A stretch of DNA of 64,000 nucleotides, taken from assembly GCF_021088345.1 (NCBI RefSeq), contig NZ_CP088156.1, positions 1,860,001-1,924,000 of the forward strand, in the 5' to 3' direction. Position 1 is the first letter of the stretch, and the number at the start of each line of letters is the position of its first letter. Shown in pieces: positions 15,798-64,000 of the stretch. Below the pieces are notes generated by a model, which saw only the letters and a list, made by a program, of their open reading frames with translations, was not told the DNA's origin and ran no database searches. The position numbers were made by a program, and so were the translations under genes. The stretch is from Bradyrhizobium ontarionense. GTDB taxonomy: Bacteria; Pseudomonadota; Alphaproteobacteria; Rhizobiales; Xanthobacteraceae.

Positions 15798-17078
15798 ATG
15801 GTTGATTCCAGACACAGCGCAGACGCGACACGCGCGGGCCATGCGCTCGACGCTGCCAACTTCTTCCTGGCTGACGTGCGCGACGGCCTCGGCCCCTATC
15901 TCGCGATCTATCTGCTGACCGAGCAGAAATGGGACGAGGCCTCGATCGGCCTCGTCATGTCGCTGGCGACGATGGCAGGCATCGTCGCGCAGACCCCGGC
16001 CGGCGCCCTGGTCGATGCGACCAGGGCGAAACGCATGATCATGATCGTCGCCGCGATCATCGTCACGGCGTCTTCTCTCCTGCTGCCAGTGATGACGAGC
16101 TTCTGGCCGGTCGCGATCTCGCAAAGCATCGCCAACGCCGCCGGCGTGATCTTCGCGCCGGCCATCGCGGCGGTATCGCTTGGGATCTTCGGGGCCAGAG
16201 CGTTCACGGCGCGGGTCGGCCGCAACGAAACCTTCAACCATGCCGGCAACGCCATCGGCGCCGTCATCGCCGGCGCCGCCGCCTATGCGCTCGGCCCGTC
16301 GGCAGTGTTCTACCTGATGGCGGTGATGTCGGCGGGCAGCCTCGTCAGCGTGCTCGCGATCCCGGAGCGCGCCATCGATCATGATGTCGCGCGCGGCCTG
16401 TCGCATCAGGCCGACGGCGGTGCGCCGGAGCGAGGCGAGCAGCCGTCGGGCCTCGGCATTCTCCTCACCTGCCGTCCGCTCATGATCTTCGCGATCTGCG
16501 TCGCGCTGTTCCATTTGGCCAACGCCGCGATGCTGCCGCTGGTCGGCCAGAAGCTGGCGCTGCAGGACAAGAATCTCGGCACCAGCCTGATGTCGGCCTG
16601 CATCGCCGCGGCGCAGCTCGTGATGGTGCCGATGGCGCTGCTGGTCGGCGCCCGCGCCGACCGCTGGGGCCACAAGCGCTTCTTCCTGGCGGCGCTCCTG
16701 ATCCTGCCGCTGCGCGCGGTGCTCTACACACTGTCCGACGACAAGGCGTGGCTGGTCGGCGTCCAACTGCTCGACGGCGTCGGCGCCGGCATCTTCGGCG
16801 CCATCATGCCGGTGATCGTGGCTGACCTCATGCGCAACACCGGCCGCTTCAATGTCGCGCAGGGCGCCGTCATCACCGCACAGAGCATCGGTGCCGCGCT
16901 CTCGACGGCGTTGGCCGGCTTCATCGTGGTCCATGGCGGTTACAGCGCCGCATTCCTCGCGCTCGGCGCGATCGCGGCGCTCGCCGTGATCGTATGCTGG
17001 CTGCTGCTGCCCGAGACCCGCGGAAGCGAAGCGCCGCATTCGAACGCCGCGCCCTCACCCGCTATCGCCGCGGAATGA
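15798..17078 (+). CDS. MFS transporter
   Basis: A 426-residue major facilitator with about 12 hydrophobic segments. The start region (AGHALDAANFFLADVRDGLG, then PYLAIYLL) and the loop GALVDATRAKRMIM between segments 2 and 3 are typical of MFS efflux-type proteins. The substrate is not evident. It is 22 bp upstream of an ArsB-type carrier on the same strand, so the two may form an operon, and the pairing could suggest metalloid or anion export, which is inference. Confidence 0.85.
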   Translation: MVDSRHSADATRAGHALDAANFFLADVRDGLGPYLAIYLLTEQKWDEASIGLVMSLATMAGIVAQTPAGALVDATRAKRMIMIVAAIIVTASSLLLPVMTSFWPVAISQSIANAAGVIFAPAIAAVSLGIFGARAFTARVGRNETFNHAGNAIGAVIAGAAAYALGPSAVFYLMAVMSAGSLVSVLAIPERAIDHDVARGLSHQADGGAPERGEQPSGLGILLTCRPLMIFAICVALFHLANAAMLPLVGQKLALQDKNLGTSLMSACIAAAQLVMVPMALLVGARADRWGHKRFFLAALLILPLRAVLYTLSDDKAWLVGVQLLDGVGAGIFGAIMPVIVADLMRNTGRFNVAQGAVITAQSIGAALSTALAGFIVVHGGYSAAFLALGAIAALAVIVCWLLLPETRGSEAPHSNAAPSPAIAAE

Positions 17079-44916: not shown

Positions 44917-44993
44917 GCGCTCGTAGCTCAGCTGGATAGAGCATCGGATTTCGATTCCGAGGGTCGGGAGTTCGAATCTCTCCGAGCGCGCCA
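44917..44993 (+). tRNA. tRNA-Arg (anticodon TCG)
   Basis: A 77-nt cloverleaf: acceptor stem GCGCTCG with CGAGCGC, D-arm GCTCAGCTGGATAGAGC, anticodon stem TCGGA/TCCGA around TTTCGAT, T-arm GGGAGTTCGAATCTCTC, discriminator G and encoded CCA. It lies just before an integrase gene, so it is probably the attachment site of the island. Confidence 0.95.
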
Positions 44994-45181: not shown

Positions 45182-45227
45182 GCTGCATTTTTCAGCGAGG
45201 GACAGGAGTTCGAATCTCCCGTGCAGC
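45182..45227 (+). repeat. tRNA 3'-end-like remnant overlapping the integrase start
   Basis: GGAGTTCGAATCTC is shared exactly with the T-arm of tRNA-Arg, with a 7-base loop TTCGAAT and a 4-bp stem. A 7-base strand GTGCAGC (45221-45227) follows it without gap, as an acceptor strand would, and pairs with GCTGCAT at 45182. D and anticodon arms are missing. It may be a second, decayed attachment site or a tRNA remnant carried by the element. Confidence 0.55.
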
Positions 45228-46447
45228 TTCTAACTCAAAAGCCCGAGATCACCGCCAAGAACTATCTCTCCGTCGGGCCCGGCGAATACCCGTGCGGCAA
45301 CAACCTCTACCTGATCGTCACCCCAAGTGGCGGCCGCCGCTGGGCGTTCCGATACCAGCGCAACGGCATCATCAAGAAGATGGGCTTCGGTTCGGCCAAG
45401 GAAAGCGGCCTGAAGCTCTCCGAGGCCAGGGATAAGGCGATTGACGCTCTGCGGCTGCTGGCGAAGGGGACCGATCCGCGAGAGCACCGTGACGTAGAGA
45501 AACGCCGCACCCAGGGATCGCGCCAGTTCGGCGAATTCGCCGAGGAATGGCGGCGAACCTACGAGACCGGCATGAGGCACAAGGCCGCAAGAGCAAAGCT
45601 GAAGCGCATCGTGCAGGTCATCTGCCATCCGCTCCGCAAGCACTGGGTCCACGAGATCGAAACCGCACATGTCGTCAATGTGCTCATGCCGATCTGGCCC
45701 CAGCCTGAGACCTCCCGCTCCGCTCGCCAGATCATCAAAAAGATTCTTGACGCAGCGATCGCTCAAAACCTGCGACCGAAAGATAACCCGGCTGATTGGG
45801 CCAGCCGACTGCAACCGATCATGCCCAGGCAACGGCGGCGTGGCACGATACGGGGCGGCCACAAGGCGATGGACTACCAAGACCTACCGGCGTTCATGCA
45901 CAAGCTCAGCGCCATCTCGACGCAAAGCGCGCGGGCGCTCGAGGTCATTATTCTGACCTTGGGACGAACCGCCGAAGTGCAGAACATGCGCTGGGCGCAA
46001 GTCGATCTCGATAACGGAATCTGGGATCTTGGCTTTCTCGGCACCAAAAACGAGCGGTTGAAGCGCACGCCGTTGCCCCGGCAGACCCTGACCTATTTGC
46101 GCGAGGCTTACGACAGCTGCGTGAGTGACGAATTCGTGTTTCCCGGTCGCAGTCTAAAGACACCGATGAGCAACATGACCATGCTCAAGTATCTCAAGGA
46201 GCTCACCGGAGACGAATCCCTGACTGTGCACGGCTTCCGCACGACGTTTCGAACCTGGGCGCAGGAGCAAACCCACTTCGAGGAAGAAATCGTCGAGCAT
46301 TGCCTGCACCACATCACGGGCGATGATGCCGAAAAGGCCTATAAGCGCGGCGAGGCCCTGAAGAAGCGACTGCATGTGATGCAGACATTCGCGGACTTCG
46401 CAACACAACGACCAAAGAGCAATGTGACTCCGATAAAGGTCGCCTGA
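45221..46447 (+). CDS. Tyrosine integrase, P4/DUF4102 type
   Basis: A 408-residue site-specific recombinase. The N-terminal half carries the DUF4102-like arm-binding domain (GNNLYLIVTPSGGRRWAFRY) and SAM-like core domain. Catalytic residues are visible: Arg in ILTLGRTAEVQNMRW, His-x-x-Arg in LTVHGFRTTFRTWAQEQT, a second His in CLHHITGDD and Tyr in AEKAYKRGEALKK. The gene looks intact. Start GTG 45221 lies in the tRNA-like remnant; a later start is possible. Its place right after tRNA-Arg suggests it mediates integration there. Confidence 0.92.
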   Translation: MQLLTQKPEITAKNYLSVGPGEYPCGNNLYLIVTPSGGRRWAFRYQRNGIIKKMGFGSAKESGLKLSEARDKAIDALRLLAKGTDPREHRDVEKRRTQGSRQFGEFAEEWRRTYETGMRHKAARAKLKRIVQVICHPLRKHWVHEIETAHVVNVLMPIWPQPETSRSARQIIKKILDAAIAQNLRPKDNPADWASRLQPIMPRQRRRGTIRGGHKAMDYQDLPAFMHKLSAISTQSARALEVIILTLGRTAEVQNMRWAQVDLDNGIWDLGFLGTKNERLKRTPLPRQTLTYLREAYDSCVSDEFVFPGRSLKTPMSNMTMLKYLKELTGDESLTVHGFRTTFRTWAQEQTHFEEEIVEHCLHHITGDDAEKAYKRGEALKKRLHVMQTFADFATQRPKSNVTPIKVA

Positions 46448-50657: not shown

Positions 50658-51554
50658 GTGGGATCCAAACATTTCGAGAACAGAGCGCGCCGCGAATGGT
50701 GGTCGCTGCACATCGAAGCGTGGCGTCGCAGCGGTCTCGGGATCCGCAAATACTGCCAGCAACAACGTCTGACCGAGAACACTCTGCGGCGTTGGCTGAA
50801 GCGGCTGGCCGGCAACGAGACTGCGCTCAAACTCGAGAAATATCAGACGGAATTGCGCCGCGAGCGCGCCCGGGAAGAGCGAGAAAAGGCGCTCCGAAAG
50901 CAGAAGCAGCGCAGGTTCACGGTCACCTCGGATGTGCGCAATCGGGCGTCCCAGGCATTCTGGGCGATGCATGTCGAGGCACTGAACTGGAGCGGAATGG
51001 AGCTCCGCGCCTACGCCTCGGCGATGCAGCTGTCGCCGCATTCGCTGCGCAAATGGCGCGACCGACTGGCCGCCGGCGAGGTCACGATCGACTGGCGTGC
51101 CCATCTTCATCCCTCCGCCCGTCCCGCCGTTAGCACTAGTGCTAGGAACTCACAGCCCGAACGCCGCTTGACAGCCGCCGAGATCGGCGATCCGACCGCG
51201 CCCAAAATGCCAGCCCGCCGCTTCTTCAGCGACGAGGAAAAGCTCGCGATCGCCAAGGAAACCGAGCTACCAGGCGCCAAGGTCTCTGCCGTCGCCCGCA
51301 AGCATGGGATCGTCACCGGGCTGCTGTTCCGCTGGCGCGCGCAGTTCGGCATCGCGCAAAAGAAGCGCTCCAAGCTCGCCCGTGTCGTGCTGCCCAACGA
51401 CCTGCCCGCAGCACGCGCCCTGCGCGATCTCGTGCGTCCACCGGAGGGCATGATGGTCGTCGATCTCCGTGATGGACGGCGCGTCTTCGCTCCCGCCGGC
51501 AGCGATCCGGATGCGGTGCGAGCGCAGATCGAAAGCGGAGAGACAGCATCATGA
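50658..51554 (+). CDS. tnpA: IS66 accessory protein TnpA
   Basis: A 298-residue IS66-type TnpA with duplicated helix-turn-helix-like N-terminal segments: WWSLHIEAWRRSGLGIRKYC (about residue 14) and, repeated about 85 residues on, AFWAMHVEALNWSGMELRAY, then an additional DNA-binding domain about 190-230 (FFSDEEKLAIAKETELPG onwards). TnpA is needed with TnpB and TnpC. The GTG start and the 4-bp overlap with tnpB are as in other IS66 elements. Confidence 0.88.
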   Translation: MGSKHFENRARREWWSLHIEAWRRSGLGIRKYCQQQRLTENTLRRWLKRLAGNETALKLEKYQTELRRERAREEREKALRKQKQRRFTVTSDVRNRASQAFWAMHVEALNWSGMELRAYASAMQLSPHSLRKWRDRLAAGEVTIDWRAHLHPSARPAVSTSARNSQPERRLTAAEIGDPTAPKMPARRFFSDEEKLAIAKETELPGAKVSAVARKHGIVTGLLFRWRAQFGIAQKKRSKLARVVLPNDLPAARALRDLVRPPEGMMVVDLRDGRRVFAPAGSDPDAVRAQIESGETAS

Positions 51555-51904
51555 TGTTCGTTCCTGCAGGCGTGAAGGTGCACCTGGCGCTCGGCTACAC
51601 CGACATGCGCAAAGGCATGGATGGGCTCGCAATGCTGGTGCAGGACACGCTCAAGAAGGATCCGTTCTCGGGTCATCTGTTTGCCTTCCGCGGCAAGAAG
51701 GCATCGATCCTGAAGGTCCTGTTCTGGGACGGAAGCGGCCTTTGTCTGTTCACCAAACGCATCGACCAGGGCGGCTTCGTGTGGCCGGTGATGGCGGGCT
51801 ATGATGGCTCGATCACGCTCTCTCCTGCGCAGCTCGCGATGCTGATCGAAGGCATCGACTGGCGCGCGCCAGAGCGTGTCTGGAAGCCTGCCATTGCAGG
51901 ATGA
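51551..51904 (+). CDS. tnpB: IS66 accessory protein TnpB
   Basis: A 117-residue IS66 Orf2/TnpB: VPAGVKVHLALGYTDMRKGM near the start, then DGLAMLVQDTLKKDPFSGHL, the AFRGKKASILKVLFWDGSGL segment and LLIEGIDWRAPE-type end. It is complete. Confidence 0.95.
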   Translation: MMFVPAGVKVHLALGYTDMRKGMDGLAMLVQDTLKKDPFSGHLFAFRGKKASILKVLFWDGSGLCLFTKRIDQGGFVWPVMAGYDGSITLSPAQLAMLIEGIDWRAPERVWKPAIAG

Positions 51905-51973
51905 TCTGCAAAATGTAGTGCTGAACTGAGTTGCGATTCTTCTACGAATCAGTGTGTTCGAGTACCATCGGAC

Positions 51974-53335
51974 ATGCAGCTCGATCTCACCAATCTCCCA
52001 TCCGATCCTGAGCTTCTGCAGCGCCTGGTGCGCGACATCGCGGCCGCCATCGATCACCGCGATACTGAGATCCAGCGTCTCAAGTCCATCATCAAACAGC
52101 TGCAGCGAATGCAGTTCGGCCGTAGTTCCGAGCGCATCGATCCCGACCAGCTTGCACTCGGTTTGGAGGATCTCGACAGCGACATCGGGCGCGTCGAGGA
52201 AGCGCAACCGAAGATCACACCGGAAGCCAACTCTTCGCCGCGACGCCGCCCGCTGCCCGATCATCTGCCACGCGAAGACGTTCTGCTCGACGTGCAGGAT
52301 CGAGTCTGCAGCTGCTGTGGCGGCGCTCTCCATCTGATTGGTGAGAGCGTCAGCGAGATGCTGGATTGGGTCCCGGCGCAGCTTCGCGTCCTGCGTACGA
52401 CCCGTCCGAAATACGCCTGCCGCGCCTGCAGCACGGTGGTGCAAGCCGGAGCGCCAGAGCGATTGATCGCTGGCGGCCTGGCGACGCCTGCGCTGCTCGC
52501 GCACGTGTTGATCAGCAAGTATTGCGATCATCTTCCGCTCTATCGGCAGTCGCAGATCTTCGACCGTCACGGCGTCGATCTCTGCCGCTCGACGCTCGCG
52601 GGCTGGGTTGGTGGCGCATGCTGGTGGCTTGAGGCCTTGCACGAACGGCTGTGCAAGAGTGTGTTCGCCTCCAACCATCTTTTTGCCGATGGCACACCGA
52701 TTCCAGTGCTCGATCCTGGCCGCGGACGAACCAAGACAGGACGGCTCTGGGTGTACGCCCGCGAGCAACGGCCCTGGAGCGGACCTGAACCTCCGGCGGC
52801 CATCTACCTGTTCGCTCCAGATCGCAAGGCGGAGCGACCGGTCGCACATCTTGCTGCCTTCAAGGGCATCCTGCATGTCGACGGATATGCTGGCTTCGAG
52901 CAGCTGGCCGACAAGGAGGGCATCACGCTCGCAGCGTGTTGGAGCCACTCGCGACGCAAGTTCTACGACGTGGCCGAAGCCACGACGTCCCCCGTGGCAG
53001 CAGAAGCCCTGCGCCGGATCGGCGAGCTCTATGCGATCGAGGCGCGCATCCGCGGCCAATCGCCTGACTACCGACTTGCCGAGCGCAGGATGTTCTCCAA
53101 GCCAATCGTCGGCGCGCTGAACGTCTGGCTCGATGCACAGCTCCGCCTGGTCTCCGGCCGCAGCACGCTTGCCGAGGCAATCCGCTATGCACTCTCGCGC
53201 TGGCATGGGCTGACTCGCTTCCTGAACGACGGGCGCGTCGAGCTCGACACCAATCCGGTCGAACGCGCAATCCGTCCTGTCGCCCTCGGTCGCAAGAACC
53301 ATTTGTTCGCCAGACGGCGCAAAGTCGGGTGCTAA
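51974..53335 (+). CDS. tnpC: IS66 transposase TnpC, C-terminally truncated
   Basis: A 453-residue DDE transposase of IS66. An N-terminal leucine-zipper-like helix (VRDIAAAIDHRDTEIQRLKS) is followed by a zinc-binding cluster CSCCGG and CRAC, and the DDE domain with LFADGTPIPVLDPGRGRTKT, HVDGYAGFEQLADKEGITLA and VELDTNPVERAIRPVALGRK. About 60-80 residues after KNHLFA are missing and replaced by RRRKVGC, so the protein is probably inactive. Confidence 0.85.
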   Translation: MQLDLTNLPSDPELLQRLVRDIAAAIDHRDTEIQRLKSIIKQLQRMQFGRSSERIDPDQLALGLEDLDSDIGRVEEAQPKITPEANSSPRRRPLPDHLPREDVLLDVQDRVCSCCGGALHLIGESVSEMLDWVPAQLRVLRTTRPKYACRACSTVVQAGAPERLIAGGLATPALLAHVLISKYCDHLPLYRQSQIFDRHGVDLCRSTLAGWVGGACWWLEALHERLCKSVFASNHLFADGTPIPVLDPGRGRTKTGRLWVYAREQRPWSGPEPPAAIYLFAPDRKAERPVAHLAAFKGILHVDGYAGFEQLADKEGITLAACWSHSRRKFYDVAEATTSPVAAEALRRIGELYAIEARIRGQSPDYRLAERRMFSKPIVGALNVWLDAQLRLVSGRSTLAEAIRYALSRWHGLTRFLNDGRVELDTNPVERAIRPVALGRKNHLFARRRKVGC

Positions 53336-55010: not shown

Positions 55011-55625
55011 TCAGGCAAGCCAATCCTCGATAAAGTATTCGTAGCTATCGGCATTCTTCAAAGCCGAGTCGGGATCCTGTCCCGCCAGCCTGAGGCAATC
55101 GTCGCGTCCATAACGGATGTCGTCCGTATTTCCGGTCAGGAAGAAATGAGTTACCTCGTGGATGATTGCACCGAGCTTGCCATCTGTCCCCGTCGCAGGT
55201 GCGTTGAAGAACGCAAGGCCGAGATTGATCTTGGTAAGATCACCGGGATCAACATATGCGAAGGTGTTTCCTGCCGTATCCCGCAGAACGATGGAGCCAT
55301 CGGGCGCTGTGGTGGACTCAACCAAAGAACCGTCATTTGCATACAGGCAATAGAGCGATACCTTGCCGACCCAATCCGAGGTCCGCGCGAGAACCGAAAC
55401 GACCTGGTCAATAGTCGCTTGGTCGTTCCTTCCAAACCACCGTTTCACGAGCTGTTTTGTCTTGCTGTCGTTGCCGTGGAGGAAGTTCAGGGCCGCCTTC
55501 AGCGTGTTTTGCGCGTCGACCTGCGCAGCCTTTGCGCTTGCGAGATCACTTCCCTTGCACGGAACGGGTTGCGCAACCGCCGGCGCGAACCAGAGTAGAA
55601 AGACCATAACAACGAAACATCTCAT
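55011..55625 (-). CDS. Secreted aspzincin (M35-like) metalloendopeptidase
   Basis: A 204-residue exported protease. The signal peptide is at residues 1-18 (CFVVMVFLLWFAPAVA). The zinc motif HEVTH is at about residue 156; it is followed by GNTDDIRYGRDDC, the aspzincin G-x-T-D-x-x-Y-G type motif, where Asp is the third zinc ligand, and by KNADSYEYFIED, seen in the lysine-specific metalloendopeptidase family. Such enzymes cut on the N-terminal side of Lys or basic residues. It is the last gene of the leftward operon containing the giant protein. Confidence 0.88.
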   Translation of the reverse strand: MRCFVVMVFLLWFAPAVAQPVPCKGSDLASAKAAQVDAQNTLKAALNFLHGNDSKTKQLVKRWFGRNDQATIDQVVSVLARTSDWVGKVSLYCLYANDGSLVESTTAPDGSIVLRDTAGNTFAYVDPGDLTKINLGLAFFNAPATGTDGKLGAIIHEVTHFFLTGNTDDIRYGRDDCLRLAGQDPDSALKNADSYEYFIEDWLA

Positions 55626-55693
55626 CGAAATATACCTCTCACCCTGTTGCCATTCCCGATCGGCCGACAGGCAGTTGCCTGGCCGGAGGCCTC

Positions 55694-56185
55694 TCACTGA
55701 CAAGCGACGCTGCCGCCGGATTTCAAACACTGGATAGCGATACTCCGATTGACGTCATGATCTGAATCGTAATCCGCGCGCTCGTTGTATTCTTTCTCTC
55801 CGCAACATTTGAACGCTCTCAGAGTGTTGAACTTGAAGTAGCCATTGATCTTGCCGTTCAACAAATTCGTCCGCGCAATGCGGTCATTATCTTCGTTCCA
55901 CTCTACGTCCTCCGACGCGTTGGCGGTGTAGACACGAATATGAAAATTGACGGGCGCGCGATCGATCCGGGCGAAACAGGCGCCGCCCTTGTCCATGAGG
56001 GCAATGAGGTCCTCCGGATAGCCCTCATTGCGCATTGCCGCCTTGGCCTTTGCCAGCCGGGGCGCGTATCGAGGATCGCCCTGGCAGAAGTCGGGGCCGC
56101 ACGCGCAGTCCTGACCGCTGGCTCGTTGCTGCGTGACAAAAAGCATCAGCGCGAAAGCCGCGCAGGCCGCAAGGCGTGGATACAT
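55694..56185 (-). CDS. Small secreted Cys-rich protein, unknown
   Basis: A 163-residue protein. Signal peptide at residues 1-23 (RLAACAAFALMLFVTQQRAS). The mature part begins with CACGPDFCQGD and contains seven or more further Cys, for example GGACFARID, FKCCGEKE and AIQCLKSGGSVACQ. YNERADYDSDHDVNR is Asp-rich and might bind calcium. I recognise no family. Strong ribosome site GAGGAGG precedes the ATG. It lies between the giant gene and the protease gene, 56 and 68 bp apart. Confidence 0.7.
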   Translation of the reverse strand: MYPRLAACAAFALMLFVTQQRASGQDCACGPDFCQGDPRYAPRLAKAKAAMRNEGYPEDLIALMDKGGACFARIDRAPVNFHIRVYTANASEDVEWNEDNDRIARTNLLNGKINGYFKFNTLRAFKCCGEKEYNERADYDSDHDVNRSIAIQCLKSGGSVACQ

Positions 56186-56241
56186 GGTCGATCCTCCTCT
56201 CAAATTTCGTGCCGTCGATGAGCGACTAGCCAGGAAAGGAA

Positions 56242-59200
56242 CTACCCGGCTGGCAGCTCCTGCAGGCCAAGCGCGCGATAGAACACCAGCCGGTCGTAGG
56301 CCGGCACCGGGCTGGATGACGGGCCGGAGTTGAAGGCACTGCCGGCGCTTCCGGTCATATCTCGATACGACGCTCCCGCCGGAAAGACCTCGAACTCCTT
56401 CACGGCAAGATAGTAGTCTTGTGGCGCCCGCAGCACGGCTGCACTGAGCGTGACCTTGCCCGCGAAGGTCTTCCAGTCGGCCGCACGATCCAGTTCCCAT
56501 CGGTCGACCGACCGCTGGTCGATCTGTTCGTCCCGGTGGGCGAGCGGACCTTCGAACGCGAGCGAGAGGCCTTCCATTCGCTGCCGCAGTTCGACGACAA
56601 CCTTCCGTTTGGGCAGGTTGGAGGACCTGGTGCCCGGCTGACGCAACCCGTCGAAGTTGCCGCCGAGCGCGACCTTGACGGCGTTGGCGCTCGATCGACG
56701 CACGGTCAGGCGACGCAGGCCGGGATGAACGATGGGATCGGCCAGGGCAACCTCCGACATCGACAACCGAGGAACGCTGTGTGGCTGATAGCGAACCAGC
56801 GCGAGCTGGACGAATGGCATCCCCTCTTCCGGAGCACGCACGGCGATGTCGGCGTACCACATGTCCTTTTTGGCGCTGTACTTGACCTCGTGCAGCGCAA
56901 CGCTCACCGGCGGCAATTCCGTGCCGTCCAGTTCAACGACATCGTCGTAGCGGGCCACATCGACGGCCCTTGTAAAATCGTCGATGGTCAAGGGTGAATA
57001 TTTGGCTTCGTCCCAGACCGGATCGAACCCCCACCGCGAGACGTACTTCCGCAAACCCTGCGGGATCAGTCCCTCGTTGGCCACGTCTTCGACGATACGG
57101 GAGGTGTTGATCTGCGCGCTGTACACAACGACCCCGAGCCGTTCGTCACCGGTCGCGTTCCATGGCCGGTGCATATAACAGCGAATCACGGAATCGCGCT
57201 GTTCGATCAGGCGGTCGGGCTCCTTGAGCAGCGGCCGGTTGGCATACGCCGGAAGCAGGTAGGCGATCTCGGGCTTGGGCGGCCGGGCCGAACTGACCAA
57301 CTCCAGAATTCGCGGCTCGGTGGTCATCGGTTGTCGATCGATTTCTGCGACCATATCCGGGAACCGCGTGCTCGCGTCACCGATGACATACAGGCGACGC
57401 GCCCGCGTATCGCCGAACGAATGCGAGAACTCGAAAGGTCGGCTTTCCCAAGCCGGCTGGTCGAGATTGTCGCGGTCGGCGATGGGCTGATCGGCGATCT
57501 GGGCCTGGTCGGTGTAGATCCCGACGATGACGGCGGCTGAATAGTCTTCGCCGAGTCCCGAATCTTCTTGTCCCAAAGCTGACCGTGTCTTGACCGGTTG
57601 GAACCCGGTCACCCGCCCCTCGCGATCGATGACGGCCTTGTAGTTGGCCTTGCGCCCCGTCCCCTTCATGTCGTGCAAGACGACCAACGGCGGCCTGGCA
57701 TAGAATCCGTTCGCCTCGGCGCCTTGCTTGAGACGCACCTCGACAACCTTGCCGCCGACAACCTTGGCCTCGGCTACGGCCGGCGTGTGCAACGGTGGCC
57801 GGCGATTGACGGTAATAGCGAAAGCACGATCCTTAGGATAGTTATTGCCGCCGTCTTCGATCGTAACCGCCGTCAGTTTACCGTCCTTGACGACTGGCTG
57901 CAGGATAGCGCCGTCGCCGCCGACGTGGATCTTGCCGACAACTGCCACACTGCCATATCCGAAACCGGGATTTTTGATTTCCACCTTGGTGATCTTGCCC
58001 GTGGGAGCGTAGGCCACCACGGTCGCAGGACCAAACAACGCCGGCACCGTCTCGTCCCAGAGATCGTTCCAGTACATCGAGAACGCCATCGCCCCCGAAC
58101 TCGGGACGTCGACGTTCAGGAGCGACTTGAAGTTCTGCGCCGTGTCGTTCTGGACCCGGCTCGGGTCGTCGACGAGCTGAATCCATTCCGGCTGGCGCAG
58201 CGGCCCGGTGACGGCGTGGGTCAGATCGATCGTCAGGCCCGCGTTCGCCTCCACGGCCGCGATCACATCCGGATTCTTTCGCAACGCGTCGGGCACTAAA
58301 TCCAGAACATGCATGGCAGCGATGCGACATTGAGCCGTGCGGGCCGGCGGGACACGCAACGCCAGCTTCTGACTGGACGCGCTGGCACCTACCGGTCCTG
58401 TCGCAAGTTCGAGCTGCGGCGCAGCCGCGTTCCGCCATTTGTCCTGCGGAATGAACCACGGCGTAACCTTGTCAAGCCACTTATCCTGCTGCACGAGTTG
58501 CAACTGTACAGGATTTGACCATTGACCCGGCCAGCCCGCGCCCGATGAAACCGCGGAAGCCGGAACGACGCCCCTGAGCGTTTCGGTAACGCTGGCGACG
58601 GCATGGGTCGCAAACGGATCGGGGAAATAATTCAGCCCCGATGGCCGTTGGGCAAGTATGCCGTCGTCAAAGAACTGCTCGTGCTTGCGGATGATCTCGG
58701 TGACCTGCTTGCCATGCGCCAGAAGCGCCGCGGCGTTCCTTTTCGGATCGGGATCGAGGAATCCCGTACCGATGACGGTTTCGACGTCGACCGGTGGCGG
58801 CAACAAGTGGCAGGACGAATTGTAGAGAGCTCCCTTGCCATTGCTGCGTGGCGGAACCGGCTTGCCGTTCCTTTCGGTGACAAGCACCAGCCGCAGGCTT
58901 TGCATCGAGGTGCCGGGAGCCTGGTCCGCAGCCTCTTCCTGATGATAGCCGACGAAGGAGAATTGCGGCAGGTTCAGCGTCTTGCCGGGCTGCGCCATGA
59001 CCGGCGCGAGCGGCGCATCCGGTCGAGTGAACTGAGAAAGCTTTTGCGCGTATGAGGCAGGCGTCAGGCTGGCCAGATGCTTCCTGGTTTCTGTATCCAG
59101 ATGTTGCGACATGTTGCCTGCGAGATCGACCCGCCATCCGCGGACCCAATAGCCTCGCTTGGTGCGCAGCGGCAGCATGCCTGCCGCCGGCGGCGTGCAT

Positions 59201-62200
59201 TTGATCGTGATCGGCCAAGCGCCGTCCGATTTCTTGCCCTCCGGAAGATCGGTGTTTCCCGGCTGCGGCACCGTAAGCCACCAGCCCCGCCAGCGCGCGA
59301 TGCAGTCGCTCGCAACCGCGTGGATCGGCGCAACGCCGGCGGCGGCAGCCGCCGCCGGTTGCGCGGCATGCTCGATGATTGTCCGCGCGAACGCCACCGG
59401 CAGATATCTGAGCGCGGCTCCCTCGATCGGATCGTGGCTTGCAAGCGCATTCTCCGCCGCAACGGCGCGGCTCTGATCCTGGTATCGCCGCGGACCCCAG
59501 ACCGTGCGCGAAATTCCTCGCGGGGTCCTCAGCACGCCAGGCAGGAAGTCGATCGATCCTTCCGAAAGCGCAATACTGGATAGTCTTTTGATGTTCGCCG
59601 AAGTGTCGGCCTGCGACGCCGGCGTCCATTTCCCGAACAGCCCCGCCTCGAGGGCGACCAACTTGCCGCCCAGCCCATCACTGCCGTCGGTCAAATCGAT
59701 CTGCAACTGGCCGCCTCCGTTCGGCCACGCACTTGCGACGATGCAATCACCCGGCAAAAGATCGGCGACGCGGCGATTCGGCAATCCGGACTCGACATCG
59801 GAGAACCGTGCGTCTTTTCTGCATTGCATTTGCCACTGCGACTTTCCTGTCAGGGAAGCCAGATGCAGCACCAACGTATCGGGCTGATTCGGAGTGGAGA
59901 CGATTTCGGTCGAAACCAGCTCGCCCATCATGCGCAACGTTCTCGGGCTCAGCATGTCGACGGCGGCAAGTGTGACCTTGCCCAGTGAACTGACAAGTTT
60001 GAAGTAACCGGCGCGATCGTTCGGATCGGCTGACGGAACCTGTATCGTACGCAGGTCCAATGTGGTCAGCGTAGTCGACTTTGCCGCGATGAAACCCGCG
60101 ATCCATCCCGGCCAGCCGACGCCGCGCAGCTTGCCGATCTCGTTGACGCAGATCGCCTCGAGCCAGATTTGATCGCCCTTGTTGAGCGCCGTGCTGATGT
60201 CGCTCGGCTGGTGCAACGGCTTGTTGGTGGTATCTTGCGGACCCGCCAAAACGTCGAACCGCACCGGCTGATCGCCCTGGTCTGTCGAGATCGTCACGAT
60301 CCAGTCGAGATGCGACGAGGACTTCGCGGCTCGCGCCTCGTCGCTGATGGCCGCGTCGATATTCGCCTTGTCAGCCGGAGCGAGCACTGCCCACCTCTCG
60401 ATGAGGAACACCTGCTGTTCCGATTCGGCGCCCACGGTGACGGTGACGACCTTACCGCTCGCAGCGACAATCTCGTCCTTGGCTGGCGTCGCGACGTCGG
60501 ACGGAACAATCAACTTCGTCTTGATCAGCGTCTGGCCAGCCGGTTGCCAGCTAATCAACGTCCCGTTCCGCGCGCTCGTTTCCCCTGGAAATTTGTAGGA
60601 CGTGGTGCTCGGGGTGATCTGTCCTCGCATCTCGAATGCCACTTGCCCCTTGGCAGGCCCGCGTACACGCTGCAACTCGGTCTCGATCCGCGCGATGCGC
60701 GGCAGCCACGCCACGACGGGCGCGGCAATGGCCGCTTTGGCGCCGGGCGATTGCGAGTCCTTGGTGCCGAGGAAATTCAATTGAAGGATCTTGAGCGGGG
60801 CATTGAGGCTTTGCAGAATGCCGTCTCCGGACACCGCGTCTCCTTTGGCAAGCTCGACGGCATGCCCAGCGCGGTCGGCAATTACTTCCGCCGCGCACGT
60901 GAACGGCACGTCCGCGGCTATGCCGGTGAGACGGAAATTGAACGATTTGCGACCGTCGCCGGTGTCGACTGCCGAAATGTCATCCACCTGACCGCTGAAA
61001 CGCAAGCGCAAGGGAAAAACAGCGATCGCGGGCATCTGCAACTTCTGCCCGCCGCGCGTCACGTCTTTGGACGCGACGAACGGAAGGGTCAGCAAGGTCA
61101 GGTCCCCACCCGATCTTGCCGCGTGCTCTGCCGTCAGCACCGCCTGCGGAAGGCTGTCGCTGATGACCGCGGTCCCCTTCCCCGGGTCGATCGAGCGGCT
61201 CAACCGCCGCTGCGCCACCAGATCCGTTGCTGAACGAAGATAGGCTCTTCGTTCCCCCTCGGCTTCAAAGGCTTCAAATTTGGGCGGCCAGGTTTCGTGT
61301 GCGAGGACGGTACCATCGGCATTGAGAAACGAGCTGATTCCGCCGGAGAAGGCGAAATTGAAATCTTCCTTCCGCAATTTGCTTCTCGCCTGGAAGAACT
61401 GCACGCGCGATTGCGGCAACTCACTGTCTTTCAAGGCGTCGGTCGCGAACACCGGCGAAAGGAAAAGTTCCTGAACCAGCGTAGGATCGAGTTCGGGTGC
61501 CCCACTCGGCATAGGTCCGATCGTCACCTGGACGCGGTCCATCTCCGCACCGGCAGGTAACGAACCCTGGTTGGCCAGAAGGTCGGAAATATCCGTGACG
61601 TCGCGGAGCACGGAGCGCAATTGGGTCGACGGCTCGACATCACTGTTTGAAGTCTCGATGCTGCCGGCGGCTTTTTGCGCCGTGACCAAATAGCCATTGC
61701 TGTGATCGGGGACCGACGAATTGTAGGCTCCCCGTTGGTCGACCCGCAGGACGAACTTCTGGAGGGTGGTCTTGTCATCCGCTCCGGTGACCGTATCGAT
61801 TGCCTGGATCGGCCCGACGATCGGGGCGGCAGATGTCCCCACCGAAGTCGAGACGTAGCCCTCCTCCTCGCAGTCGATCAGAGGATCGCTCTCGCCATCG
61901 CCATAGACCCGAACCCTCCTGCGGCACAGCGAATGCCACTTCCCCGCGCCGCCGTTTTCGTCGAAGGCGACATCGAATGCGTATCCGCTCATCAGGTCTT
62001 CAGCGTACAGCTCAATCGTCGGCGCGCCGATCAGCTCCTGCCCACGCGAGAGCCGGTTGAGAATGACCTCTGCAACCCTTTGGTCGTCGGGCCGTTCAGA
62101 CTGAATGATGATGGCATCCGTCAACGCCTCGTCCGTTGGCCCGGCTTGTGGGGACGTCGACGGACTTCCCGCGGTCAACAGCGAACGCATCAACGTACGG

Positions 62201-63438
62201 GTGTGATCCTCCTGCTGCAGCGAAAAATAGTCGCGGGGCAGGAGATTGAAGCGCTTCCAGTGTGTGGAGTGGCCATCGAGCTCGTTCTCGACTTTCTCCT
62301 GCGCGCGGAAAAATCCGTTCTTGGTATCCGGGTTGAGCTCAAAATGCGTCACTACCTCGGCCGGCGGCGCCAAGACGGTCGAACCGAATTCCGGAATTCG
62401 CAGTGAGATCGTACCGCTAACCAGCGCATCGCCCACTGCGTCGATCGGAGCGGAGCAATGCACCACCAAACCGAGTTGCTCCATTACGCCAGGATGGTGC
62501 TTCAAGCGCGCCAATATCTCGGCAACGCCGGGATGTTCCGCATGCTTGGGGTCCATAGCTTGCCGAGGCCGGTTTCGGGCCAGATTGACACTACGCTGAA
62601 CGCGGGCGGCCTCACCGCCGGCGGCAATGTTGGACAGTGACACGGCGGCCGCGAGCTTGAGCATCGCGGTATCCTGCGCGTTATTGGGATCGAGATTGAG
62701 CGCGCCGGGGGCAGCCGGGAGCGATAGAGCGTTGCTGACCGCCATCAGTTCCAAGGCTTGACCCGGCCCCACCTTGTTGGCGGCGCGGACGAAATCGGGG
62801 CGCCGCGCCGCAACGTGCGCCTTTACCATCGCCAACTGGCGGGGATCTGCCTGCAATACCGTCTGGATGTGCGCTGCCGACTGGTCCAGCCACGCACGCG
62901 TGCTCCGCGTTTCAAGAGACTCGATTCGCCGGGTTGGCCGGAGATCCGATCCGCCGCTCGGATTGGTGACCACCCTCTGGTCCGGTCCGGCGCCCACGGC
63001 CGGGTCGGCCGGGGCCTGCGGCTGCCTGAACAAGCTGGCCAGTTGTCCTACGCTTCGCCCGTGCTTCGACCTGTCGACATTCGGGTTCTCGAAGGAAAAT
63101 ATCTTGCTCCACGCTTTCAGCGCTTTCGATGCATCAAGATGGACGGCATCGGTACGCGAAGCTGGCCTGGACTTGCGCGTCTCTGCGATCTTAACGTCCA
63201 CGAACACGCCGCCTTCGATCTCCGCGACCGTTGGATTACCAGCAGCAAAGTTCGCGTTCCGCCACTTCAGGTTATGCAGCGTTTTCGGCCACTCGCGAAA
63301 AATCTCAGGAAAGGTAATTTCCTGATCCTGCGCGTTGCCGGACAGATCGAAATTGAACACCACCGCGAAATGAATTCGCTGTCCGTCGAAAGCACGGGGA
63401 ACGACGATCGGCCTCAGGGAAATCTTTGCGTCAGCCAT
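56242..63438 (-). CDS. Giant uncharacterised beta-rich protein (2,398 residues)
   Basis: One uninterrupted frame of 2,398 residues from ATG 63438 (GAGGAC ribosome site seven bases upstream). No signal peptide and no membrane helix are apparent. Residues 1-400 contain Arg-rich linkers and a helical stretch; most of the rest looks beta-rich. At about 1805-1980 there are repeats of the GxxxxVxIxNPGFGY / GKLTAVTIEDGGNNY / GRVTGF type, as found in phage-fibre and adhesin repeats. Near the end (about 2088-2150) lie IRCYMHRPWNATGDERLGVV and KYVSRWGFDPVW, motifs I associate vaguely with large uncharacterised bacterial proteins but cannot name. TAA of the upstream gene, one base, then ATG: translation is coupled. 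Function unknown. Confidence 0.85.
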   Translation of the reverse strand: MADAKISLRPIVVPRAFDGQRIHFAVVFNFDLSGNAQDQEITFPEIFREWPKTLHNLKWRNANFAAGNPTVAEIEGGVFVDVKIAETRKSRPASRTDAVHLDASKALKAWSKIFSFENPNVDRSKHGRSVGQLASLFRQPQAPADPAVGAGPDQRVVTNPSGGSDLRPTRRIESLETRSTRAWLDQSAAHIQTVLQADPRQLAMVKAHVAARRPDFVRAANKVGPGQALELMAVSNALSLPAAPGALNLDPNNAQDTAMLKLAAAVSLSNIAAGGEAARVQRSVNLARNRPRQAMDPKHAEHPGVAEILARLKHHPGVMEQLGLVVHCSAPIDAVGDALVSGTISLRIPEFGSTVLAPPAEVVTHFELNPDTKNGFFRAQEKVENELDGHSTHWKRFNLLPRDYFSLQQEDHTRTLMRSLLTAGSPSTSPQAGPTDEALTDAIIIQSERPDDQRVAEVILNRLSRGQELIGAPTIELYAEDLMSGYAFDVAFDENGGAGKWHSLCRRRVRVYGDGESDPLIDCEEEGYVSTSVGTSAAPIVGPIQAIDTVTGADDKTTLQKFVLRVDQRGAYNSSVPDHSNGYLVTAQKAAGSIETSNSDVEPSTQLRSVLRDVTDISDLLANQGSLPAGAEMDRVQVTIGPMPSGAPELDPTLVQELFLSPVFATDALKDSELPQSRVQFFQARSKLRKEDFNFAFSGGISSFLNADGTVLAHETWPPKFEAFEAEGERRAYLRSATDLVAQRRLSRSIDPGKGTAVISDSLPQAVLTAEHAARSGGDLTLLTLPFVASKDVTRGGQKLQMPAIAVFPLRLRFSGQVDDISAVDTGDGRKSFNFRLTGIAADVPFTCAAEVIADRAGHAVELAKGDAVSGDGILQSLNAPLKILQLNFLGTKDSQSPGAKAAIAAPVVAWLPRIARIETELQRVRGPAKGQVAFEMRGQITPSTTSYKFPGETSARNGTLISWQPAGQTLIKTKLIVPSDVATPAKDEIVAASGKVVTVTVGAESEQQVFLIERWAVLAPADKANIDAAISDEARAAKSSSHLDWIVTISTDQGDQPVRFDVLAGPQDTTNKPLHQPSDISTALNKGDQIWLEAICVNEIGKLRGVGWPGWIAGFIAAKSTTLTTLDLRTIQVPSADPNDRAGYFKLVSSLGKVTLAAVDMLSPRTLRMMGELVSTEIVSTPNQPDTLVLHLASLTGKSQWQMQCRKDARFSDVESGLPNRRVADLLPGDCIVASAWPNGGGQLQIDLTDGSDGLGGKLVALEAGLFGKWTPASQADTSANIKRLSSIALSEGSIDFLPGVLRTPRGISRTVWGPRRYQDQSRAVAAENALASHDPIEGAALRYLPVAFARTIIEHAAQPAAAAAAGVAPIHAVASDCIARWRGWWLTVPQPGNTDLPEGKKSDGAWPITIKCTPPAAGMLPLRTKRGYWVRGWRVDLAGNMSQHLDTETRKHLASLTPASYAQKLSQFTRPDAPLAPVMAQPGKTLNLPQFSFVGYHQEEAADQAPGTSMQSLRLVLVTERNGKPVPPRSNGKGALYNSSCHLLPPPVDVETVIGTGFLDPDPKRNAAALLAHGKQVTEIIRKHEQFFDDGILAQRPSGLNYFPDPFATHAVASVTETLRGVVPASAVSSGAGWPGQWSNPVQLQLVQQDKWLDKVTPWFIPQDKWRNAAAPQLELATGPVGASASSQKLALRVPPARTAQCRIAAMHVLDLVPDALRKNPDVIAAVEANAGLTIDLTHAVTGPLRQPEWIQLVDDPSRVQNDTAQNFKSLLNVDVPSSGAMAFSMYWNDLWDETVPALFGPATVVAYAPTGKITKVEIKNPGFGYGSVAVVGKIHVGGDGAILQPVVKDGKLTAVTIEDGGNNYPKDRAFAITVNRRPPLHTPAVAEAKVVGGKVVEVRLKQGAEANGFYARPPLVVLHDMKGTGRKANYKAVIDREGRVTGFQPVKTRSALGQEDSGLGEDYSAAVIVGIYTDQAQIADQPIADRDNLDQPAWESRPFEFSHSFGDTRARRLYVIGDASTRFPDMVAEIDRQPMTTEPRILELVSSARPPKPEIAYLLPAYANRPLLKEPDRLIEQRDSVIRCYMHRPWNATGDERLGVVVYSAQINTSRIVEDVANEGLIPQGLRKYVSRWGFDPVWDEAKYSPLTIDDFTRAVDVARYDDVVELDGTELPPVSVALHEVKYSAKKDMWYADIAVRAPEEGMPFVQLALVRYQPHSVPRLSMSEVALADPIVHPGLRRLTVRRSSANAVKVALGGNFDGLRQPGTRSSNLPKRKVVVELRQRMEGLSLAFEGPLAHRDEQIDQRSVDRWELDRAADWKTFAGKVTLSAAVLRAPQDYYLAVKEFEVFPAGASYRDMTGSAGSAFNSGPSSSPVPAYDRLVFYRALGLQELPAG

Positions 63439-63439
63439 A

Positions 63440-64000
63440 TTACGTCCTCGAATAATCGAATTTCGCCCAGTAGTCCGATTCCCAATTCGCGGGCTCGAAG
63501 CGCCAGCCGCGCTTCTTCCTCTCGGCTTTGTCTTTTGCGGTCGGGAAGTAGCTGCGAACCTGATCCGGATCCGGCGCATTCGCAGGTACAAAGGTCGCCC
63601 TGGAAGCGCGCACGAACTTCAGCGTTTCCGCACCGACTGGCGCGTCGAGCAGCACCAATCCTTGTGGCTGGTCCTGACCATTGCTTTCCGATTGGCCCTT
63701 CGAACCAGCGATGGTCTTTTCCATTCCCAGATGGACGTCGTAGCTGTACACCGTGACGTCGATCGAGACCGTAATTTCGCAATAGCCGTAGAGCAGCGAG
63801 TCGCTGCCGCTGCGGCGATAAGCCAGCGCCAGGAAGAACTCGACGCAGACATGGACAAGACCGAGCACATCGAGTTGACCGCCGGCACGAAGATAGCCGG
63901 CCAGCTCCGTCGATGAGTTGGTGATCTTCAGGTATCCGCCCGCCATCACATACAGGCCGCCGCTGGCGATCCCGATGTCGAAGGACAGCGCACCGCCGAA
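63440..64000 (-). CDS. 3' end of a large uncharacterised protein (partial)
   Basis: The frame is open to the window edge, so the N-terminal part is missing. The visible 186 residues start FGGALSFDIGIASGGLYVMA and continue with alternating hydrophobic/polar strands (GQLDVLGLVHVCVEFFLALA, CEITVSIDVTVYSYDVHLGM), probably a beta-sheet-rich domain. The C-terminus is charged (FPTAKDKAERKKRGWRFEPA, then SDYWAKFDYSRT). No family is recognised. The stop is separated from the giant gene's ATG by one base. Confidence 0.75.
   Translation of the reverse strand, partial: FGGALSFDIGIASGGLYVMAGGYLKITNSSTELAGYLRAGGQLDVLGLVHVCVEFFLALAYRRSGSDSLLYGYCEITVSIDVTVYSYDVHLGMEKTIAGSKGQSESNGQDQPQGLVLLDAPVGAETLKFVRASRATFVPANAPDPDQVRSYFPTAKDKAERKKRGWRFEPANWESDYWAKFDYSRT

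Follow-up and report, generated by a model that had tools for sequence, protein, structure and literature searches.

Paired families of large beta-rich proteins, found across bacterial phyla and apparently linked in part to Tat export, in an operon of Bradyrhizobium ontarionense

Two large proteins are encoded as a conserved pair

A 64,000-nucleotide stretch of Bradyrhizobium ontarionense DNA (assembly GCF_021088345.1, contig NZ_CP088156.1; G000:C1:1860001-1924000), referred to here as the window, was analyzed; it belongs to an 8.4-Mb genome on a single contig. A leftward operon at its right end encodes two very large proteins, named A and B here in their order of transcription. These were found to be a two-gene unit that occurs across many bacterial phyla and lies outside every catalogued family searched. 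The initial annotation of the window had proposed that the two act with a secreted cysteine-rich protein and an aspzincin protease, encoded after them, as a four-gene system. The giant and its partner proved to be a real pair, whereas the four-gene system did not hold up.

B is a giant protein of 2,398 residues that starts with MADAKI (56242..63438, minus strand) and matches the B-family profile with E 2.1e-82. As first annotated, it has no signal peptide, and no hydrophobic segment was seen by eye at its N-terminus. It is a B-family member carrying two insertions, at about residues 538-1368 and 1799-1980. Only the 3′ end of A is inside the window (63440..64000, minus strand; A-family profile E 1e-150). 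It had been taken for the end of another large protein, correctly so, and the whole gene was read at window coordinates 63440-67672 (L002 9440-13672), running past the window edge. A has 1,410 residues if read from its earliest possible start, or about 1,372 if read from the methionine ahead of the twin-arginine motif described below. A lies directly upstream of B with a gap of 1 bp, the arrangement by which the A-B family is defined, and gaps of 56 and 68 bp lead on to the cysteine-rich and aspzincin genes; the coordinates given for these four leftward genes were exact. Since both large proteins have homologues across phyla, chance open reading frames (ORFs) are excluded.

A protein search gave nine full-length giants, counting the query, and its weaker matches led to a family with members of about 1,300 residues. 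Four annotated plasmid loci were compared; in each, B stood behind a large protein matching A, which in one locus is split into two ORFs. A search with a Streptomyces B scored 7,997 candidates and recovered 891 homologues. Scanning genomes with an alignment of the giants themselves yielded no match, but a pattern-limited scan with the B alignment, run across 84,980 species genomes, gave 392 stretches with a B relative. The best 80 of these 392 were analyzed together with seven of eight plasmid records (H3, a second record from the same species as H2, was omitted), making 87 loci. The best 80 loci come from Actinomycetota, Chloroflexota, Bacillota, Armatimonadota, Acidobacteriota, Bacteroidota, relatives of Chlorobi or Ignavibacteria, Myxococcota, Geobacter, Syntrophaceae, Chthoniobacterales, and Pseudomonadota. 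Monoderm genera are among the hosts of the pair, Streptomyces and Paenibacillus for example.

The A profile found A at 80/87 loci, on the same strand as B in all 80. The distance from the A stop to the first B-profile position was -12 to 137 bp in 78 loci and 313 and 1,300 bp in the other two, with a median of 17 bp. Six of the seven loci without A are cut at B by a contig end, and in the remaining, uncut locus (L076) the profile detected no A. A therefore adjoins B in 80 of the 81 loci not cut at B. The sizes of both proteins are about 1,000-3,000 residues.

A profile test free of locus selection was made on 398 genomes of the same phylum, taken to be Pseudomonadota. The B profile gave five strong genomes (the B. 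ontarionense genome itself, G667, G906, G917, and G929) and four weak matches in open frames of 250-484 residues (E 1.9e-6 to 8.7e-4). On 398 genomes drawn likewise, with agreement between the handles shown for the two draws, the A profile found exactly the same five. A was upstream of B in five of five further loci (G667, G906, G917, G929, and G644). The distances among A proteins correlate with those among B proteins (0.75 over 71 pairs), and none of 2000 permutations reached this value; shared inheritance alone could be the source of this correlation.

Neither A nor B could be assigned to a known family from the libraries searched. Against Pfam, the giant gave only a sub-threshold YceG match and its A partner only sub-threshold apolipoprotein-like and TAT matches, while three other A proteins gave none. 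Nothing convincing was found for A or B in NCBIfam. The PADLOC models matched the giant with no family and A with two weak ones (E 0.0067 and 0.043), which places neither in a defense system. The family profiles found nothing convincing among PDB sequences, the best E-values being 0.61 for B, 0.1 for A, and 0.13 for the giants (a phage tailspike). No description of A or B was recognized in the literature searched, whose scope leaves aside most subscription papers and all preprints. No described system with such a composition is known to us. Apart from the PHROG matches of the giant given below, the searches made gave the pair no match to a described tail, Rhs, or extracellular contractile injection system, in line with the initial remark that the combination fits no secretion, phage tail, or toxin system that could be named. 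Two large families encoded side by side occur in many phyla, yet without a convincing sequence match in Pfam, NCBIfam, PADLOC, or PDB.

Part of the family appears tied to the Tat pathway

The translated N-terminus of the B. ontarionense A (SRRDFLKIGLTTAGGLALQGG) contains a twin-arginine motif, SRRDFLK, and a hydrophobic stretch. Its match to the TAT_signal family (PF10518) is under the Pfam cut-off, with E 0.0047. Because this N-terminus lies beyond the window, a link to twin-arginine translocation (Tat) was hidden from the initial annotation. Two rules, which accept partly different proteins, found a Tat-like signal in 25/71 and 24/71 full-length A proteins. In controls, the second rule accepted 3/71 reversed A sequences and 1/87 B proteins, and at least two of its hits among the A proteins, L061 and L067, look false. 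Among the extra loci, the second rule found a signal on A in G667, G906, and G917 and none in L095; in G929 and G644, A extends to the end of the fetched stretch. An N-terminal hydrophobic segment is present in only 1 of 112 B proteins with annotated starts.

A TatA gene, confirmed by Pfam in every case, flanks the pair in 6/87 loci: after B in L010, L020, L036, and L053, and before A in L033 and L039. Each of the six A partners passes at least one of the Tat rules. The two TatA query peptides used, which divergent TatA proteins may escape, gave no further match at E<1e-3 in the 1.69 Mb of loci. In addition, a metagenomic B (P0077) reads through into a TatA-like end. Taken together, the TatA neighbors, the signals on A, and the P0077 read-through suggest from sequence a tie between the pair and Tat in some members of the family. 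In L010 (1732-16423), plasmid pC of Sinorhizobium meliloti LMB1, a 3,052-residue A, a 1,766-residue B, and a TatA gene follow one another.

From the computed pairing, Tat-like signals, TatA association, signal-less B, amphipathic strands, and predicted folds, we infer, at somewhat less than even chances, an obligate physical complex of A and B that would be exported by Tat in many lineages, with B hitchhiking on A, and would act on membranes or lipids. The two proteins would be made from one operon and fold together in the cytoplasm. They would then exit via Tat where A has a signal, B riding on that signal, and in some lineages the TatA subunit encoded beside the pair may assist. Outside the cell, the C-terminal amphipathic beta-sheet of A would enter a membrane or cradle lipid, and the sandwich chain of B would be a scaffold that shields this sheet and binds the target. 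Secreted hydrolases specific to each lineage may act in the same place, here the aspzincin, trypsin-like, astacin, and S8 proteases and, in G906, a lysozyme. Limiting the link to Tat, the remaining A proteins, about two thirds, are without a Tat-like signal. A wider version is doubtful: a phylum-spanning export unit in which two giant beta-rich proteins would assemble in the cytoplasm, cross folded through Tat, some with a private TatA, and place an amphipathic beta-sheet (a pore or lipid conduit) outside, with hydrolases as swappable payload.

The proposed export route is itself of a known kind. The Tat hitchhikers known to us are redox enzymes. In Tat hitchhiker complexes, as in the B. ontarionense A and giant B, one subunit carries the signal, its partner has none, and the two share an operon. 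Co-export of A and B would be analogous to this, but A and B are very large, beta-rich, and of no known family, and a TatA gene sometimes adjoins them. Escherichia coli PaoABC is reported as an example of such a complex (PMC4273604). More than one TatA, localizing different substrates, is reported for Campylobacter jejuni (PMC4148689). The likeness there is that several TatA proteins serve different substrates; unlike in that case, the tatA found in some A-B loci adjoins the cargo pair. The Tat link raises two questions: whether Tat can carry so large a complex, and whether the neighboring TatA serves a single cargo.

Predicted folds and their possible functions

Folding alignments of 60 A and 50 B proteins, chosen by length and spread, were used for structure prediction. 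The C-terminus of A is predicted to be a porin-like amphipathic sheet, a meander of long strands, and B a chain of Ig/Fn3-like sandwiches. Strand-face analysis of A, which covered 11 of the 14 predicted strands between 859 and 1052, gave a two-face pattern there; elsewhere in A, 15 strands have mixed face values, and some of these are two-faced too. Closed outer-membrane barrels lead the structural matches listed for A. The best Foldseek match listed was the S-layer deinoxanthin-binding complex (E 6.4e-5), with LptD at E 1.2e-4 and weak matches to apoB and MTP (E 0.03-0.04). The predicted long amphipathic strands resemble outer-membrane beta-barrels such as CymA, OmpG, and LptD. An aromatic C-terminal residue is a mark of these barrels, but it was found in 0/71 A proteins. 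Also unlike the barrels, many A proteins have a Tat-like signal, their hosts include monoderms, and a helix with a W..Y..[AS][FY] motif lies beyond the last strand. If the A sheet serves as a membrane or lipid device, that device would reach its place already folded and would occur even in bacteria without an outer membrane.

Another possible explanation, which we consider unlikely, is that A and B carry a lipid or another hydrophobic compound. The A sheet would then form a lipid groove comparable to that of LptD or apoB/MTP, with B as its shell, and neither a pore nor antagonism would be involved. The two-face strands and the LptD, apoB, and MTP matches are consistent with this, as is an apolipoprotein-like helical stretch in the B. 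ontarionense A (E 7e-4, under the Pfam cut-off). Some neighbors also point this way: related membrane-anchored proteins are encoded 18 bp (L074) and 45 bp (L077) after B, and L086 encodes a relative 5.3 kb away from B; in G929, DUF4403 is found near B; in L007, a patatin gene follows B by 0.8 kb; and the lipid-transport-type family Polyketide_cyc2 matches 2 of 76 adjacent genes (a Pfam census of 76 of the 108 adjacent genes listed for the 87 loci). However, such lipid-type neighbors are scarce and vary by locus, and closed barrels are the top structural matches.

For B, the top Foldseek E-value among the matches listed, 4.8e-8, was to the alpha-2-macroglobulin/complement superfamily, with which it shares tandem beta-sandwich domains. 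The TM-scores of the alpha-2-macroglobulin and thioester-containing protein entries are at most 0.1. A reading of B as an alpha-2-macroglobulin-like trap was rejected, since the thioester motif in its usual context, [GP]C[GAL]EQ, occurs in 0/207 B proteins, and a bare C.EQ in 2/207. Extra Ig/ASH-type or FHA domains are present in four B proteins according to precomputed annotation (P0086, P0095, P0140, and P0141).

The listed B matches also include adhesin and tail-fiber domains. Together with the array of sandwiches and the S-layer match of A, they would fit a surface or appendage system in which A would be the anchor in or on the envelope, B a long adhesive fiber, and proteases would trim or release this fiber. 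A further point in favor is that PHROG virion and baseplate profiles match the giant at residues ~1806-1954, in the second insertion (best E 6.3e-9). We regard this system as quite unlikely, given that no sorting signal was noticed, that no A among the 71 ends in an aromatic residue, and that the pair is also found in monoderm genera.

The insertion at ~1806-1954 is perhaps a borrowed phage module. A phage tail was set aside as the identity of the system, as the PHROG matches fall mainly in this one insertion of the giant, with one more at 1376-1397 (E 0.091), and the phage records had no giant match; for A, the PHROG scan covered its 186-residue end. One IMG/VR contig, L095, which may or may not be viral, has an A-B pair. 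On that contig (2059-14170), A is present as two ORFs and B has 2,407 residues. A 244-residue ORF after B has a twin-arginine-like start and no match in Pfam.

Neighboring genes differ from locus to locus

The two genes after B encode secreted proteins, as initially annotated. The first product, a putative accessory of 163 residues (55694..56185, minus strand), has a signal-like N-terminus followed by eight cysteines (by eye) and no match in Pfam. The second, also a putative accessory, is an aspzincin (M35) metalloprotease of 204 residues (55011..55625, minus strand). It matches PF14521 with E 3.2e-27 and a score of 96.1 bits against a curated cut-off of 30, which places it in M35, and resembles the peptidyl-Lys metalloendopeptidase 1g12 (E 4.6e-20). 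Upstream of A, the operon continues on the same strand with genes for a trypsin-like protease, an astacin, a PatA/PatG-type S8 protease (TIGR03895, E 4.1e-209), and a ferritin-like protein. The S8 protein recalls the PatA/PatG cyanobactin proteases, but it is only a local neighbor outside the conserved pair. Between the S8 protease and astacin genes is a 49-residue ORF with CEAICNAIGDPVARAACLALC at its end (L002 ~16110-16260, minus strand; window coordinate ~70110-70260), which by eye has the appearance of a precursor of a ribosomally synthesized and post-translationally modified peptide.

These six neighbors were compared by BLAST with the 87 other loci, whose flanks are at most 10-15 kb and include several short contigs, and 83/87 had no match. 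The S8 protease was matched in three loci and the cysteine-rich protein, over 55 residues, in one (beside A, in S. meliloti); the aspzincin, astacin, trypsin-like, and ferritin-like proteins were matched in none, and the search missed a trypsin-like gene in G906. Companions of these kinds recur at three loci. An aspzincin homologue overlaps the B end in G929; in G644, a cysteine-rich homologue (44% identity, E 7e-38) is encoded about 0.5 kb beyond B; and in G906, Pfam showed B to be followed by genes for a trypsin-like protein and a phage-type lysozyme.

The differing secreted hydrolases after B in G929 and G906, the island location, and the sparse distribution (5/398 genomes) could be explained by an antibacterial weapon, a pore-forming A-B complex with the variable hydrolases as co-delivered effectors. 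This is very unlikely; no immunity gene was identified, and the adjacent genes are mixed, the most frequent family in the Pfam census having four members among the 76 genes (first 25 of 102 families listed). Least probable is the four-gene system, in which the aspzincin would process the giant and the cysteine-rich protein would inhibit or neutralize it: the operon layout and the three recurrences favor it, but it was rejected because the neighbors are unmatched in 83/87 loci, and the two genes occur together in none of the other loci examined. Within the limits of the flanks and of BLAST, homologues of the giant occur without a protease or cysteine-rich neighbor at most loci examined, a situation that the initial annotation had named as refuting its proposal. 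The protease and cysteine-rich genes have the look of accessories that vary between loci, recur at a few of them, and lie outside the core.

Clustering of the neighbors for a conserved third gene gave small groups only, the largest a response-regulator type in eight loci at varying distances. A related protein of about 400 residues is encoded 10-43 bp after B in five actinobacterial loci (L025, L026, L041, L043, and L046); that of L025 has no match in Pfam. In L063, L064, and L091, from Thiothrix and two Paenibacillus, an ORF that looks papain-like by eye was found at a distance of 3-5 kb from the pair.

The operon is inside a genomic island

The operon lies wholly inside an island of about 46 kb. 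The integrated element with a tRNA-adjacent integrase described initially was borne out: the island is bounded by a tRNA-Arg(tcg) gene (44917..44993, plus strand), which is its attachment end, and a direct copy of the tRNA 3′ end with 25/26 bp repeated (window coordinate 90949-90974; L003 16949-16974). Adjoining the tRNA is a putative integrase ORF of 408 residues, named by the look of its sequence (45221..46447, plus strand). The ORFs at 50658-53335 (plus strand) inside the island look like IS66-type transposase genes.

A defense island was considered and rejected. In PADLOC, the 76 adjacent genes matched ten families, none of them more than once, and an IetA-like AAA ATPase (L003 11993-14580, minus strand; PADLOC E 7e-72) shares the island but stands apart from the operon. 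An S8-type ORF adjoins this ATPase gene, with a further ORF in another frame beyond it, and together with the ATPase resembles an IetAS-like pair in the same island.
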